Assembly: GCF_937910335.1 (NCBI RefSeq) | Contig: NZ_CALEMX010000487.1 | Location: forward strand, 1 to 53,809 | Reading direction: 5' to 3' | Length of the DNA stretch: 53,809 bases | Source of the DNA: an uncultured Gimesia sp. | Lineage (GTDB): Bacteria > Planctomycetota > Planctomycetia > Planctomycetales > Planctomycetaceae | Program-made: the position numbers and the translations under genes | The notes under the pieces: model-generated | Seen by the model: only the letters and a program-made list of their open reading frames with translations | The model's database searches: none | What the model was told of the DNA's origin: nothing | In this document: one piece after another, positions 32,194-39,264 of the stretch | Layout of the letters: the number at the start of each line of letters is the position of its first letter | Numbering within the stretch: position 1 is the stretch's first letter

Positions 32194-34344
32194 TTAGTGA
32201 ATTAAAATAAATTCATTGGAATTGAGATAAGCCCAATAGACATCCTGATAGCTTTGTTGAATTGCCGTCTGAGATGGGACGTTGCGGGCAATCAGATACT
32301 TAGTACGCTCTTTAATCAGGCGTTTCATTTCTGATAACTCTCGAGAAGAAGGATGTCGCGTCAAGGCAGCCAGGCTCAGCTTTTTAATTCTGTTATCAGG
32401 GCTACGTTCTTTCAGCGCCTGTGCCAGAATAGTCTGCTCCTGTTTGTAATCGAGACAATGTTTAATCAAAGGGCCGTTCATCATCAGCAATGCCTGAGTG
32501 ATCGTACCATCAAACGTAGTCGTTTCGTCATTTTCTTCATTATCGAGCGTATAGACAAACTGCTGTAACCATCGATCTCGTTTCTGCATTTTATTCCATG
32601 CCGTAGAATAATCAGTGATGATCTGATCCGGATTTGCAGTGACAAGCAAGGAGTCGTAAAGTTGTTCAGCTGTCATTTGCTTCACATACATGCGACTGAA
32701 GTTAGGAGTACTGCCATCATCAGGATTATCTGAAACATTCTCATCCATGAAACGACTACTAAGCCGATAGGCATCAGACAAACAAATCCACTGGATCAGT
32801 TGTTTGATGTCATATTCACTGTCAATGAATTGACTTGCTAACTGATTCAGTAATTCAGGATGTGTGGGTGAATTATGATAACCCATATCGTCAATGGGTC
32901 GAGTAAATCCATAACCAAAGAAATGAGCCCACATACGATTCACCATGGCTCGAGCCAACTGGTTATTCTTGCCTGAAGTCATCAATCGTGCCAACTGCTG
33001 ACGTCGGTTTACACCCGCTTCAGCCGATACTTTAACTCCGGCAAATTTAGGATAGGCTGGCTGAACAAGGCCTTGTCGTGTTTCGTAGAAAGTCGTCCCT
33101 CCGTTGGAAACCGAAATCAACTCCAACTTCGGTGCCTGCTTTCCCACAACGTCCATTTTCCTGCTACGAACAACTTTTGTCTGCTTGAAGAAACTGTTGA
33201 TTTCCCAGAATTGACTTTGAGTTGCATCGTTAAAAGGATGGTTATGACATTGTGTGCATTGAATTTGAGTTCCCAGAAAAAGGCGAGTCGTAATCGCGGT
33301 CGCGGGAACTGCTTCGTTATTCAAGTGTGCCAGGAGAAAATTGGTTGCGCCATTGGTTTCTGAATCGCCTTCTGCAGATACCAGATCATAAACCATCTCA
33401 CTCCAGGGACGGTTTGCTGCAAAACTATCAACCAGAAAATCTTGCAAAGCCTGCCGGTTGATCTCGCGAGAAGTCGAACGGCCAATTAACAATCGTGTCC
33501 AGATCGTCGACCAGTTAGTAACATAAGTAGGATCTTCGGTCAGATATTCTATCAGCAGTTGATGCTTATCAGCCTGCTTCGATGCCAAAAACTGTTTTGC
33601 TTCATCTGGAGTAGGAATACGACCTATCACATCAAGATACACACGCCGGATCCACTCTTCATCGGTAGCGAAAGAGGAAGGCGTGATATTAGCTGCTTCC
33701 CACCCATCCTGTATACGACGATTGATAAACGTAATGATTGCTTCATCAGAAGCGTCTGATGGCAGTTTCTCAGCTGGCGCTAACTGCTTTGGTCTGATTG
33801 CAATCAAAGGGCGATCATCGTTTAACGCGACAGGATCCCCATTCTGAGATTGCAGCATTGGATGTTTTGCGGGCTCTATCTTAATTGATCGCGCGTGAGT
33901 CGATGGAATGGAAACCGGATTCTCGGAAATATGTCGGGGACCATTGGGTACCTGATTCCGTTCGATCGGAGTTTCGGCTAGATTTGGGGATTCGTTCTGT
34001 TTCGTAAATGAATTGAATGCAACAACGAACAACACCAATAAGCAGGCTGTTGCCAACCCCAGACTTAATTGTTTTCTGCGAGTGATTGCAGGCTTCCGAA
34101 TTGGTTTCGGTAATTCCGCTTCTGGAACAGGCATCGTGACCGGAATCATTGCATCGGAGCCCAATGCCTGATCCCAGTAGAGTGTTCCATGTAGATGTGA
34201 ATAATTCAGATAGTATTGCATAGCATCAGGATCTGAAAGTACGATTTCTTCCAGACGCATCTTATCCACGGTAGAGAGACGTTCTTCGCACAATGCTTCC
34301 ATCAGCAAAGAAAGTTCGGCTAATTCCAGTTCTTTCTTACTCAT
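32194..34344 (-). CDS. Anti-sigma-like N-terminus fused to PSCyt2 (DUF1549) and PSD1 (DUF1553) domains
   Basis: This 716-aa protein has a cytoplasmic helical N-terminus (residues 1-90, LSLLMEALCEERLSTVDKMR) like planctomycete anti-sigma factors, one membrane span at about residues 92-112, a linker, then a PSCyt2 domain from about 205 and a PSD1 domain to the end. The PSCyt2 part contains CTQCH at 33244-33258, a c-type haem motif that would face the periplasm. The start overlaps the sigma factor stop by 8 bases, so the two are translationally coupled. The expected job is to hold the sigma factor and release it on an extracytoplasmic cue, perhaps sensed by the haem or PSD1 part. That mechanism is inferred. 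Confidence 0.88.
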   Translation of the reverse strand: MSKKELELAELSLLMEALCEERLSTVDKMRLEEIVLSDPDAMQYYLNYSHLHGTLYWDQALGSDAMIPVTMPVPEAELPKPIRKPAITRRKQLSLGLATACLLVLFVVAFNSFTKQNESPNLAETPIERNQVPNGPRHISENPVSIPSTHARSIKIEPAKHPMLQSQNGDPVALNDDRPLIAIRPKQLAPAEKLPSDASDEAIITFINRRIQDGWEAANITPSSFATDEEWIRRVYLDVIGRIPTPDEAKQFLASKQADKHQLLIEYLTEDPTYVTNWSTIWTRLLIGRSTSREINRQALQDFLVDSFAANRPWSEMVYDLVSAEGDSETNGATNFLLAHLNNEAVPATAITTRLFLGTQIQCTQCHNHPFNDATQSQFWEINSFFKQTKVVRSRKMDVVGKQAPKLELISVSNGGTTFYETRQGLVQPAYPKFAGVKVSAEAGVNRRQQLARLMTSGKNNQLARAMVNRMWAHFFGYGFTRPIDDMGYHNSPTHPELLNQLASQFIDSEYDIKQLIQWICLSDAYRLSSRFMDENVSDNPDDGSTPNFSRMYVKQMTAEQLYDSLLVTANPDQIITDYSTAWNKMQKRDRWLQQFVYTLDNEENDETTTFDGTITQALLMMNGPLIKHCLDYKQEQTILAQALKERSPDNRIKKLSLAALTRHPSSRELSEMKRLIKERTKYLIARNVPSQTAIQQSYQDVYWAYLNSNEFILIH

Positions 34345-34903
34345 GACTATAGGACTCTGATGCTATATAACGATTAATACACTCGAATAAAGTACGTCTT
34401 ACACGACCTAGAGATTGATAAACAGAATTTGCGGGACGCCCCAAATCCTCAGCTACTTCCTTGCCCTGATGACTTCCCTGATAGCGTCGTTGGATTAACT
34501 CTCGATCTTTCTTTCGCAATTTGCCAAGACAGAAAGTTAACGCGTTGCGACGTAACTCAAAAATGTCCTGATTCTCTTTTACAGCTTCTGCTACCTGAGT
34601 AACGAATTCATCGCTAAATTGAAGCTTGTCACGGCTTCGTTTTTTCCGAAACTTTAAGACTTCGTAATGTGAAATTTGACAAGCCCAGGCAAAAAAATTA
34701 GTACCAGCTTCAAACTGTTGTGCTTTTTTCCAGATGACCAAATTTGTATTTTGCAAAATCTCTTCCGCTTCCAATGGATGAGGAACCACCGAGAGAATAT
34801 ACAAATAAATGCGCCTCTGAGACTTGGTAAATAACGTGATAAATTCACGCCCTTGCTCAGATTCGGTATCAGGAAAAACAGGTTGGTCAGTCGAACTTGT
34901 CAA
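34337..34903 (-). CDS. ECF-type RNA polymerase sigma factor (Rhodopirellula/Verrucomicrobium family)
   Basis: This 188-aa sigma-70 family protein has region 2 (SQRRIYLYILSVVPHPLEAEEILQ, NTNLVIWKK and FFAWACQISHYEVLKFRKK) and region 4 (LRKKDRELIQRRYQG and GRPANSVYQSLGRVRRTLFECI). It matches the planctomycete/verrucomicrobial ECF-like family. The start is TTG, which fits the family N-terminus; a GGAA lies upstream. Its last codons overlap the anti-sigma fusion gene. Targets are unknown; the neighbouring PSCyt2/DUF1501 operon is a natural candidate. Confidence 0.92.
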   Translation of the reverse strand: MTSSTDQPVFPDTESEQGREFITLFTKSQRRIYLYILSVVPHPLEAEEILQNTNLVIWKKAQQFEAGTNFFAWACQISHYEVLKFRKKRSRDKLQFSDEFVTQVAEAVKENQDIFELRRNALTFCLGKLRKKDRELIQRRYQGSHQGKEVAEDLGRPANSVYQSLGRVRRTLFECINRYIASESYSHE

Positions 34904-34964: not shown

Positions 34965-35005
34965 TAAAACAGCGGAAGCACCCTTGGCGAGCGTCCGCTG
35001 TTTTA
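34965..35005 (-). terminator. Strong stem-loop terminator after the DUF1501 gene
   Basis: TAAAACAGCGGA and TCCGCTGTTTTA form a perfect 12-bp stem around a 17-base loop, with A/T tracts at the outer ends so it can work in either direction. It sits 33 bases past the DUF1501 stop and before the sigma factor, separating the two minus-strand units. Confidence 0.82.
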
Positions 35006-35037: not shown

Positions 35038-36312
35038 TCAGCCAATCAACTCCTTGATGGGAGTTCCACCATTGGCTAATTTCATGGGACGACCGCGTTT
35101 TGATGTATGTACGATATCCAATGGAATTCCCAACGCATGAGAAACCGTTGCCCAGAGGTCGCCTGGGAGATAACTCTTGCCTTCGATACCAATTCCATCA
35201 CTGTCGGTTTTACCAACAGCCTGACCATTCTTGAGTCCACCACCACCAACCATGGCAGTCCAACTGGCGGCCCAGTGATCGCGACCAACATTCTGGTTAA
35301 TACGCGGAGTACGACCAAATTCGCCCATACAGACAATCGTCACATCGTCCAACATCGCACGCTGCTTCAAGTCTGTAACCAGTGCTGAAATTCCTTTATC
35401 CAACTGAGGCAGGTTATTATTCTTCAATGAATCGAAGACGCCCTGGTGCAGGTCCCAACTCCCAACGGAAGCTGATACTTCGATAAATGGTACTCCGACC
35501 TCTACCAGACGGCGAGCTAGCAATAAGCCTTTACCAAAGTTGCCGGTTCCATAGGCATCTTTTAAGGCCGCTGGTTCCTGATCGACCTTGAATGCTTCCA
35601 TTTGCTTGGAAGTCATCAAGTTAACGGCTTTCTTATAAATGTCCTTATGAGAATTGGCAGATTCACCCCGCTTGGACTTAATGAATCCGGACTCCAGAAC
35701 TTCCAGCATATTGAGCCGTTGCCCTAATCGCTGTTGTTCCGTCATGTTGATTTCTGCATTTTGAATGGTTCCATCGCTGGAAACAACAAAGGGAGAATGA
35801 GCCATCCCCAAAAATCCGGCGCTTCCCCGACTACCACCAACTGAGATGAAAGAAGGGATATCCAGTTCTTTACGGCGAGAGCCTAATTCGTAACTGACGA
35901 CCGAACCAAATGTCGGATGAACCACAGTCGGATTAGGAACATATGCAGAGTGCATGTAATAAGTCCCGCGGGCATGATCCGCTTCACGAGTACTCATCGA
36001 TCGAATCAATGAAAGATCGCCCATGACTTGAGCGGTCTGAGGCATATGCTCAGAAATCTGCATGTCACCTTTCGTACTGATTGGCTTGAACTCTCCCCCG
36101 TTCTTTGAACCAGGTTTGAGGTCCCAGATATCAATTGTAGGTGGTCCGCCCGGCATCCAAATCAGGATACATGCCTTTTGCTGTTTTTTGACCTGGCTGG
36201 CATTTGCTTCTAGATGAGACAGGAAATGCATCGTGGGAATCGTTGTCGCAGCACCCGCGACATGATTCAAAAAATGCCGACGCGTCATTCCATAGGGATT
36301 GAGAATTGTCAT
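35038..36312 (-). CDS. DUF1501 family secreted protein
   Basis: This 424-aa protein has a twin-arginine-type N-terminus ([14 protein letters not shown]) and the DUF1501 features [64 protein letters not shown] and [16 protein letters not shown]. The fold is related to alkaline phosphatase/sulfatase enzymes. DUF1501 genes are classically paired with PSCyt2/PSD1 genes, as here, where the partner is 76 bases upstream on the same strand. AAGG lies before the ATG at 36312. The substrate is unknown; export by the Tat pathway is inferred from the RR motif. Confidence 0.93.
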
Positions 36313-36388: not shown

Positions 36389-38035
36389 TTAATGATTGAA
36401 GATAAACTCATTTGAGTTCAGCAGTGCCCAGTAAAGGTCCTGATAGGCGGATAATTTATTCTTCGAACTGCCAACCAGACTCTGGGCGCCTTTGATTTCA
36501 CGACGATCCGGGTAACGGTTCAAAGTAGACAGAAACATTTTACGAATTTTTACCTGATCGCTGCTCTTCTCTGATAATAATTGATTCAGATAACTCCCTT
36601 TATCGGCACTGATGGCGTTTTTTGTGAGGTCGCCATTCATCATCATTAATGCCTGAGGAATGGTGCCGTTAAAAGTCGTGGAATCATCGCCTGAATCGCC
36701 ATCAAAGGCGACCATAAACTGGCCCATCCATCGGCGACGTTGCGTTTCAGCCCGCTCCCAGTTGGACTGACCCGATTTGTGAGCACCAGTGGCTACGATC
36801 AACGAATCGTAGAGCTGCTCAGCCGACATATTCTTGACATACATATGAGAGAAAAGGGGAGATTCTCCTTTCTCAGGGCTGTCAATTTCATTCTTGCGAC
36901 CAAACTGGCTGGTCAAATTATATGCTTCACTATTACAGATCCAGCGTGCCAGTTGCTTGAGGTCATATTTTTTCTTGACCAGTTCTTCGGTCATCCTGGC
37001 TAATAATTCTGGATGAGAGGCAGGGTTATGTGGTCCCATATCATCAACGGGACGCGTAAACCCATAGCCTATGAAATAACCCCACATTCGGTTTACGATT
37101 GCTGAAGCGATTAATGGTTTCTCGCCTTTAACGATCAATTTGGAGAATTCCTTACGGCGCTCGATACCTGCTTGCGGATCGACTTTTATATTCTCGAAAA
37201 TCGGATAGGCAACCTGCATCAACCCAGAACGTTTTTCATAATAAACAGGACCATTAAAGCCAGTGGAGACAACTTCAGAGTAATCGTCAACCTGACGTCC
37301 TGTTTTGGGATCAGTCTTACGGTGATTGATGCGTCGCATCTGGCGAAAGAAGCTGTTGTATTCCCAGAATTGATTCTGTTTCCAGTCATTAAACGGATGG
37401 TTATGACATTGAGTACATTGTACCTGTATGCCTAAGAATAAACGTGTTGTTGCCGCTGTAACCTGGACCCCTTCATCATTATTCTGCATCTGTGCCAACA
37501 GATAATTCACAGCACCATTTTCTTCAAAATGTCCTTCTGCAGTGACCAGATCCTGGACTACTTCGTTCCAGGGACGATTTTTAGCAAATGCCTCACGCAA
37601 AAACTTCTGCATCCCGCTACGACTTACGCGGCGAGGTGTACGGCGACCGATGAGCAAATTCGTCCACACATTCGTGAAGTTCTGCACATAAGCAGGATCG
37701 TCCAATAATTGATCGATTACTTTTGATCGTTTCGCGGTATCACGATCTTTGGCGAATTTTTCGACAGTTTCTGCGGATGGAATTTGACCGATCAGATCCA
37801 GGTGCACGCGTCGCAGCCATTCTGCATCAGTGGCAACTGGAGAAGGCTCTACTTCATTATCTTTCCAACCCTGACGAATTTGACCGTTGATATAGTCAAT
37901 AAAAGGGTCAAATGATCCGGTAGAAAATGCCTTCGCCCTGCTTGCCGGAGGAGCAGCATCCGCGAGAGACACCAATGAACCGGCACAGATCGCAGAAGCA
38001 AAAACAACACATAGTTGTTTAGAAAAACGATGCAT
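36389..38035 (-). CDS. Secreted PSCyt2 (DUF1549) / PSD1 (DUF1553) protein
   Basis: This 548-aa protein has a signal peptide ending near VSLADAAPP, a PSCyt2 domain (QIRQGWKDNEVEPSPVATD, LRRVHLDLIGQIPS) with the CTQCH motif at 37403-37417, and a C-terminal PSD1 domain (NRMWGYFIGYGFTRPVDDMG, MSAEQLYDSLIVATG, ALLNSNEFIFNH). It is a close paralogue of the anti-sigma fusion protein at 32194-34344 but lacks the N-terminal regulatory part. It probably works with the downstream DUF1501 protein in the cell envelope or periplasm. The reaction is unknown. Confidence 0.93.
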   Translation of the reverse strand: MHRFSKQLCVVFASAICAGSLVSLADAAPPASRAKAFSTGSFDPFIDYINGQIRQGWKDNEVEPSPVATDAEWLRRVHLDLIGQIPSAETVEKFAKDRDTAKRSKVIDQLLDDPAYVQNFTNVWTNLLIGRRTPRRVSRSGMQKFLREAFAKNRPWNEVVQDLVTAEGHFEENGAVNYLLAQMQNNDEGVQVTAATTRLFLGIQVQCTQCHNHPFNDWKQNQFWEYNSFFRQMRRINHRKTDPKTGRQVDDYSEVVSTGFNGPVYYEKRSGLMQVAYPIFENIKVDPQAGIERRKEFSKLIVKGEKPLIASAIVNRMWGYFIGYGFTRPVDDMGPHNPASHPELLARMTEELVKKKYDLKQLARWICNSEAYNLTSQFGRKNEIDSPEKGESPLFSHMYVKNMSAEQLYDSLIVATGAHKSGQSNWERAETQRRRWMGQFMVAFDGDSGDDSTTFNGTIPQALMMMNGDLTKNAISADKGSYLNQLLSEKSSDQVKIRKMFLSTLNRYPDRREIKGAQSLVGSSKNKLSAYQDLYWALLNSNEFIFNH

Positions 38036-38469
38036 TTTCTAATTCTCCACTGTTTCGAAAAAAGACAGGTTTGAAAAAAGACAGGATAAAACCTGTATAG
38101 AACTATAGCGGCCACTTTGAAAAGGCAATTTGCGAAAAGAAGACCGCCTCGCTAATGTATTAACATCCTCAAAGTTCAAAACATTCGAACCGAGTCTGAA
38201 TAATATCCGTATTTTATACTAATTAGCTTTTTATAGAATACTCGCTTTTACACATTTTCCAATGATAATTCCCATCATTTCTAATGGAATCCTTGGATTT
38301 TCTAGTCCAACGTAATTTACATAAACCATTTTAATAATATATCTTACATCCATTATATCACATCGGAGTGCTCACAAAACAGGTGAATTGTCCGCTTGAT
38401 GAATGACAGGCCCCAAGAAACAGGACATGGGAACACTAATTTTTGAGCTTTTTTTCAGAATCTGGAATC
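38036..38469. promoter_or_regulatory. Divergent intergenic region with repeats near the PSCyt2 gene start
   Basis: This AT-rich region of 434 bases lies between the PSCyt2/PSD1 operon (-) and an SDR gene (+). At 38065-38096 ACAGGTTT and AAACCTGT form an 8-bp inverted repeat around 16 bases, and GAAAAAAGACAGG occurs twice in tandem (38057-38085). These fall in the 5' leader of the minus-strand operon and could be a regulatory stem. No clear promoter boxes were picked out. Confidence 0.35.
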
Positions 38470-39264
38470 ATGACAAACAGCTACCATTTTCAGGATCAAG
38501 TCGCCATTATCACCGGCGGTAGTAATGGGATCGGTCGTGCGACTGCCATTATGATGGCGGAAGCCGGTGCCCATGTCTTTGCGGGCGACATAAAACATCT
38601 CTCGGAAAACAGAGAATCGTTCTCCCGATTGGATATCGAGGAAGTGATTTGCGATGTACGCCGAGAATCTCAGGTCCAGGCGTTGATCGAACAGGCAATC
38701 AACAAGTATGGAAGAATTGACATCCTGGTAAACAATGCTGGCATTGGTTTAGTAAAGCCGATTCATCAGGTAACCGAAGCCGAATGGGACGCATGCATTG
38801 ATACGAATCTCAAAGGAACTTTTTTTGGCTGTAAGCATGCGATCAAATACATGCTGGCAACCGGAGGAGGAGCCATTGTGAATACGGCCAGCAATGCCGG
38901 TTTACTCCCCCGAGTGCACGATCCTGTTTATTCAATTAGTAAACACGCTGTCGTGGCACTCACCGAGAGCCTGGGTCTTTGTCATGGCAAAAATAACATC
39001 CGGATCAATTGTGTCTGCCCCGGACCGGTAGGGGAAACCGGAATGATGAATGATGATATTATGAACGCTGCTGACCCGGAAGGTCTGACTCAATCAATGA
39101 TTCGTGCCAGCCCGATCGCTGCTGCCAACAGAAGAATGATCAAACCGGAAGAAGTTGCCTCTGCAATTTGTTATCTGGCAAGTAAAGACGCTTTAATGGT
39201 AACGGGTACGGCCCTTCGCATTGACGGCGGTAAGTCACTTGGCGTTCCACCACAGGGCAACTAA
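38470..39264 (+). CDS. Short-chain dehydrogenase/reductase (SDR)
   Basis: This 264-aa classical SDR has TGGSNGIG for cofactor binding, AGDIKH after strand two suggesting NAD(H), NNAG, the catalytic Ser in TASNAGL, and YSISK for Tyr and Lys. The C-terminus ends IDGGKSLGVPPQGN. The ATG at 38470 is chosen because MTNSYHFQDQVAIITGG is a normal SDR N-terminus; the track's TTG adds nine unrelated residues. It converges with the PilZ gene, with 6 bases between the stops. The substrate is unknown. Confidence 0.9.
   Translation: MTNSYHFQDQVAIITGGSNGIGRATAIMMAEAGAHVFAGDIKHLSENRESFSRLDIEEVICDVRRESQVQALIEQAINKYGRIDILVNNAGIGLVKPIHQVTEAEWDACIDTNLKGTFFGCKHAIKYMLATGGGAIVNTASNAGLLPRVHDPVYSISKHAVVALTESLGLCHGKNNIRINCVCPGPVGETGMMNDDIMNAADPEGLTQSMIRASPIAAANRRMIKPEEVASAICYLASKDALMVTGTALRIDGGKSLGVPPQGN

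Follow-up and report, generated by a model that had tools for sequence, protein, structure and literature searches.

The ECF sigma gene and the fusion gene that overlaps it quite probably form a transmembrane signalling unit dedicated to the adjoining PSCyt2-DUF1501 operon. On the best reading, the fusion would sense by means of a copy of the very protein that it regulates. Support at the sequence level comes from the architecture, the gene order, the apparent duplication origin, the link between motif and sigma factor, the retained CxxCH and a probable second independent origin. From there we infer sigma binding, the direction of control (anti-sigma, not co-activator), the signal and haem attachment.

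Gene order and conservation of the locus

The window, i.e. the whole 53,809-nt stretch of DNA analysed, came from a 6.5-Mb planctomycete draft genome containing 78 PSCyt2 matches and seven TIGR02989 sigma factors above the cut-off. Genes of the locus lay on the minus strand, in the transcriptional order standalone PSCyt2/PSD1 (PSC), DUF1501, sigma and fusion:

32194..34344, minus strand: fusion gene, 716 aa; anti-sigma-like N-terminal part, one membrane span, disordered linker and PSCyt2/PSD1
34337..34903, minus strand: ECF sigma gene, TIGR02989 (Sig-70_gvs1), 188 aa, TTG start
34966..35004, minus strand: terminator-like hairpin AAAACAGCGGA..TCCGCTGTTTT between the DUF1501 and sigma genes
35038..36312, minus strand: DUF1501 partner gene, 424 aa, N-terminal twin-arginine motif (PF07394, E 5.3e-95)
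36389..38035, minus strand: standalone PSCyt2/PSD1 gene, 548 aa, with signal peptide
38156..38190, minus strand: predicted ECF promoter in front of the standalone PSCyt2-DUF1501 operon, CGAATGTTTTGAACTTTGAGGATGTTAAT

The sigma and fusion ORFs were found at the coordinates given in the original prediction, with the claimed 8-base overlap. A family survey searched 150 genomes of the order, all of one family and from 55 genera, and 60 loci were fetched and inspected. The sigma gene was detected in 56 of the 60 and an intact fusion in 53. The PSC – DUF1501 – sigma – fusion order was nearly constant among the fetched loci and was kept in most genera sampled, indicating that the pairing of sigma and fusion was far from chance. 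Fusion start and sigma stop overlapped by 4 bases in 28 of the 53 relatives and by 8 bases in seven, much as might be expected of translationally coupled genes. The hairpin between DUF1501 and sigma, with 11-base arms, was kept in all eight aligned members of the window's genus, indicating that the sigma/fusion pair was probably a separate transcription unit.

A divergent gene for an SDR dehydrogenase (38443-39264 of the window) flanked the PSC operon across many genera. At one locus (L080:6094-8229, genome G068) the fusion was broken by a single in-frame TAG between its N-terminal and PSCyt2/PSD1 parts, either a natural split or an assembly error.

Domains of the sigma and fusion proteins

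The sigma factor scored 152.6 bits against TIGR02989 (cut-off 124.55), and both Sigma70_r2 and Sigma70_r4_2 were found by Pfam, corresponding to regions 2 and 4 of the ECF fold. Features of the fusion protein were as follows:

34162..34344, minus strand: N-terminal sigma-partner module, residues 1-61, also present in other sigma partners of this genome
34003..34065, minus strand: membrane span, residues 94-114, with RKPAITRRKQ just before it (N-in)
33175..33726, minus strand: PSCyt2 domain, residues 207-390 (Pfam E 2.9e-42, above the gathering score)
33244..33258, minus strand: CTQCH motif, residues 363-367
32317..33006, minus strand: PSD1 domain, residues 447-676 (Pfam E 7e-44, above the gathering score)

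The linker between span and PSCyt2 (residues 115-184) was disordered. Exactly one hydrophobic segment was present in 51 of 53 relatives, and the 15 residues beside the span held on average 4.0 K/R on the N-terminal side versus 1.15 on the other, suggesting an N-in/C-out topology. The Pfam and TIGR02989 matches and the single membrane helix thus bore out the proposed sigma, anti-sigma-like, membrane and PSCyt2-PSD1 architecture, the anti-sigma-like part by way of homology to other sigma partners. A sequence search of the PDB with the fusion was empty at E ≤ 1, and comparing the fold of the entire fusion with PDB structures (Foldseek) gave no match at E ≤ 0.001. Residues 190-716 were modelled with confidence as a PSCyt2/PSD1 region and had only weak, phycobilisome-linker-like matches in the PDB; a solved structure of this part might reveal a new fold.

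The CTQCH motif was placed in the exported domain, export being deduced from the span and the charge bias. As the original prediction required, its cysteines were conserved: CxxCH occurred once per protein in all 58 type-A fusions (the window's type), all 16 type-B fusions (described below) and all 78 standalone copies, 152 in total. Many residues invariant in standalone copies drifted in the fusions while CxxCH stayed. One such residue, F444 in standalone numbering, was kept in 100% of standalone copies but in 34% of A fusions and 0% of B fusions. This indicates that strong selection acts on the motif in the sensors as well. A ResB/CcsA-like cytochrome c synthase was encoded in the genome in one 1257-aa frame, making haem attachment to CxxCH possible. 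The outer domain might act as a haem or redox sensor proper, with a c-type haem bound at CTQCH that responds to a gas or to the redox state of the periplasm, and with no role for catalysis. Complete conservation of CxxCH in two sensors that were probably grafted independently, against loss of other standalone-invariant residues, and the presence of the synthase speak for this, but many further residues of the fold were equally invariant, and we regard it as a tentative alternative.

The N-terminal module was predicted to contain helices at residues 3-19, 25-37 and 39-61, with conserved residues Y45, L51-H52-G53 and L55. A profile of residues 1-66 scored 20-42 bits in genes beside five other TIGR02989 sigmas of the same genome, whose products had FecR and, in two cases, laminin-G outer parts, some of them below the Pfam cut-off. 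These results suggested a sigma-partner domain to which exchangeable sensors are attached. Pfam gave no match to fusion residues 1-90 at E ≤ 1, and one sibling partner (L108) had a zf-HC2 match below threshold (E 0.0032). Searching PDB chains with the N-terminal profile returned no anti-sigma and chance-like matches only, the best of which, a designed repeat protein (0.00026), covered 15 residues and was rejected. The sigma and anti-sigma-like parts were also modelled together by AlphaFold from an unpaired alignment; to join them in one chain, TCCT close to the gene overlap was read as a single step. This model matched solved ECF sigmas (best E 2.9e-06); its domains were confident, with a pTM of 0.45 and no confident interface.

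The fusion had the layout of a class I anti-sigma domain (ASDI) protein, with helices on the cytoplasmic side, a membrane span after them and a gene coupled to that of an ECF sigma, and its N-terminus is a putative anti-sigma that would hold the sigma factor. A FecR-type co-activator, on whose N-terminus the sigma would depend for its activity and whose outer domain relays an inward signal, seems unlikely. In this genome, proteins with a FecR domain encoded behind other gvs1 sigmas carried the same N-terminal module, and N-terminal residues of FecR are essential for the activity of its sigma factor (PMC7406223). Coupled, overlapping sigma and partner genes are, however, equally typical of anti-sigmas, so that neither sign was distinguished. 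No FecR domain (PF04773) was found by Pfam in the outer part of the fusion.

A second lineage of fusions

The PSC – DUF1501 pair was conserved without this sigma in other families of the class, suggesting that the sigma/fusion unit was added to an older operon. A different ECF sigma (TIGR02989 78-91 bits, below the cut-off) was found in family f5 (lineage B). Downstream of its gene lay a fusion with an unrelated N-terminus (DPILD..LEEVLGG..PPDL), one span and PSCyt2/PSD1, and in many f5 genomes this sigma and fusion adjoined the same PSC – DUF1501 operon. Two type-B fusions (L283 and L294) carried the sigma-partner motif (LDACLEEVLGG...) twice in tandem within their first 110 residues.

In a tree of 106 PSC domains, obtained by a quick search, type-A fusions were sister to type-A standalone genes, including that of the window (support 98), and type-B fusions to standalone genes of their own clade, from f5 and related families (support 100). 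These relationships support the outer domain of a fusion as a putative duplicated copy of the lineage's own PSCyt2/PSD1 protein. Forcing all fusions into one clade cost 86.8 log-likelihood units (p-AU 0.012, in a test picked after the tree had been seen). As each fusion grouped with standalone genes from its own lineage, the grafting probably happened twice. Neither the copying of the standalone gene nor a second origin formed part of the original prediction.

A single ancestral fusion that in one lineage later exchanged its sigma and N-terminus, or in which the two changed too far to be recognised, would account for the identical four-gene order in both lineages, and the long branches of fused copies can mislead trees; the tree and the AU test nevertheless went against it, and we consider it improbable. 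On balance we favour a convergent origin, in which at least two planctomycete lineages grafted a PSCyt2/PSD1 copy onto the outer face of an unrelated sigma partner and placed the original operon under the promoter code of that sigma, giving protein-mimic sensors that possibly carry c-type haem. If true, this would be a clean case of how the sensor of an anti-sigma arises.

Promoter motifs and the proposed circuit

Upstream of the standalone PSC genes we found a motif (motif A), CGAAC-N17-GGTWA, with a broader form CGAA(C/T).TT – N – GGTWA(T); in the window it lay at about 38159-38187. Like motif B below, it was found post hoc and compared with shuffles and with sigma-less lineages. As the best pair of the first scan, it occurred in 12 of 36 PSC upstream regions versus at most six in shuffles. 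The strict form was present in 24 of 57 lineage-A operons (0.38 expected), and a leave-one-out matrix scored above 99% of the null in 34 of the 57. In about 40% of sigma-bearing operons motif A was weak or absent. Elsewhere the same matrix detected it in none of 14 f5 operons and one of 16 other operons; lineage-A operons differed from those of lineages without this sigma at a Fisher p of 1e-7. A scan for a sigma-70-type promoter was not above shuffles.

Within the family, nine members without a sigma ortholog (G007, G051, G040, G108, G049, G030, G113, G081 and G148) had no operon motif A above threshold. In two genomes with the sigma gene outside the fetched operon region, G047 and G016, the operon carried motif A at 27.3 and 15.3 bits, respectively. 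The operon of G016 thus kept its motif with the sigma gene ~3.2 Mb away, and the moved gene (L086) had its own copy of motif A upstream (11.2 bits, with a trimmed start).

In lineage B another motif, GAGTAC-N15/16-CGYT (motif B), was found at 13 of 21 type-B sigma genes and eight of 14 f5 operons, and in one of 164 regions of other sets (at most about 0.04 expected per set). These lineage-specific motifs at the operon tied each sigma to the PSC – DUF1501 operon, in keeping with the earlier suggestion that the PSCyt2-DUF1501 neighbour was a likely target, and motif B at the type-B sigma genes indicated autoregulation in lineage B. A motif shared by the regions upstream of 34903 and 38035 had been expected as well. 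It was present at 38035 but absent at the sigma genes of lineage A (0 of 69 upstream regions); only lineage B had its motif at both. A mere membrane-anchored PSCyt2/PSD1 enzyme, with the sigma controlling something else and the motif read by another regulator, would agree with the well-kept PSCyt2/PSD1 sequence and with the joined-chain model having no confident interface, but is very improbable. Motif presence tracked sigma presence within one family, including the relocated sigma, and the operon was joined by two different sigma/N-terminus pairs in the two lineages, with a separate motif for either pair.

In the signalling unit that we propose, the ECF sigma would be kept at the membrane by the cytoplasmic N-terminus of the fusion, while the periplasmic PSCyt2/PSD1 copy would meet whatever the operon product meets: substrate, haem or redox state, or the DUF1501 partner. 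The simplest signal would be a ligand, the haem/redox state or a partner of the PSC protein itself. On signalling, the sigma would be freed and would transcribe from the CGAAC-N17-GGTWA promoter, raising PSCyt2 and DUF1501. The terminator hairpin would keep the sigma/anti-sigma pair as a unit of its own in the window's genus.

RsgI-type anti-sigmas of Clostridium thermocellum are membrane proteins with an extracellular carbohydrate-binding or enzyme-like domain, such as the GH10 of RsgI6. They control related enzymes and so resemble the fusion in its proposed role, but they pair a SigI family sigma with the RsgI N-terminus, unlike the ECF/gvs1 pair here, and their sensor is not known to be a lineage-specific copy of an adjacent target gene. 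The beta-lactam sensors BlaR1 and MecR1 work alike, in that they control the gene of an enzyme class to which their own outer sensor domain is homologous; they signal through a cytoplasmic protease domain and the BlaI repressor, with no sigma factor. Closer at hand, the FecR/LamG-type TIGR02989 partners of the same genome share the sigma family, the N-terminal module and the membrane span, but carry a FecR or laminin-G-like domain on the outside in place of PSCyt2/PSD1. In Rhodopirellula baltica the ECF sigma RB10049, which is induced by heat, cold and salt (PMC2754498), was proposed as the regulator of RB10051, a PSD1+PSC2 protein (Studholme et al., cited in PMC2754498). The likeness lies in an ECF sigma proposed to regulate a PSCyt2/PSD1 protein whose locus number is close to its own; the difference is that the passage in PMC2754498 names no anti-sigma fusion, duplicated target operon or promoter. 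In the literature searched, neither the anti-sigma fusion nor the duplicated sensor nor the promoters were described, and the ECF classifications (Jogler 2012, Casas-Pastor 2021) may list the fusion.

PSCyt2/PSD1 and DUF1501 are among the most multiplied planctomycete families, and nothing is known about PSCyt/PSD functions (PMC5615132). A switch that carries a copy of the protein as its sensor offers a handle on function: the predicted sigma, promoter and target, together with a reporter, could be used to screen for the signal and hence for the likely substrate. The job of the very large PSCyt2/PSD1 family may thus have become testable.

A genome-wide scan for motif A in eight members of the genus gave 4-12 matches per genome versus 3-7 for a reversed control pattern; with counts so near the control, no regulon could be read from it. 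At three loci (L325, L332 and L347, in G003, G002 and G017, respectively) a conserved motif-A site lay ~275 bases upstream of a 408-aa ORF, the product of which had one apparent von Willebrand-like stretch as well as a membrane helix. The sigma may thus have a second target here; within the window, tblastn gave no copy. Near-identical CGAACGTTTGCGTTCGGCGGTGGGTAA sequences occurred several times in one genome (G026:C1:2612699, 2621125, 2624745 and 4231815), at least partly inside ORFs, and were probably copies of a repeated element rather than promoters.
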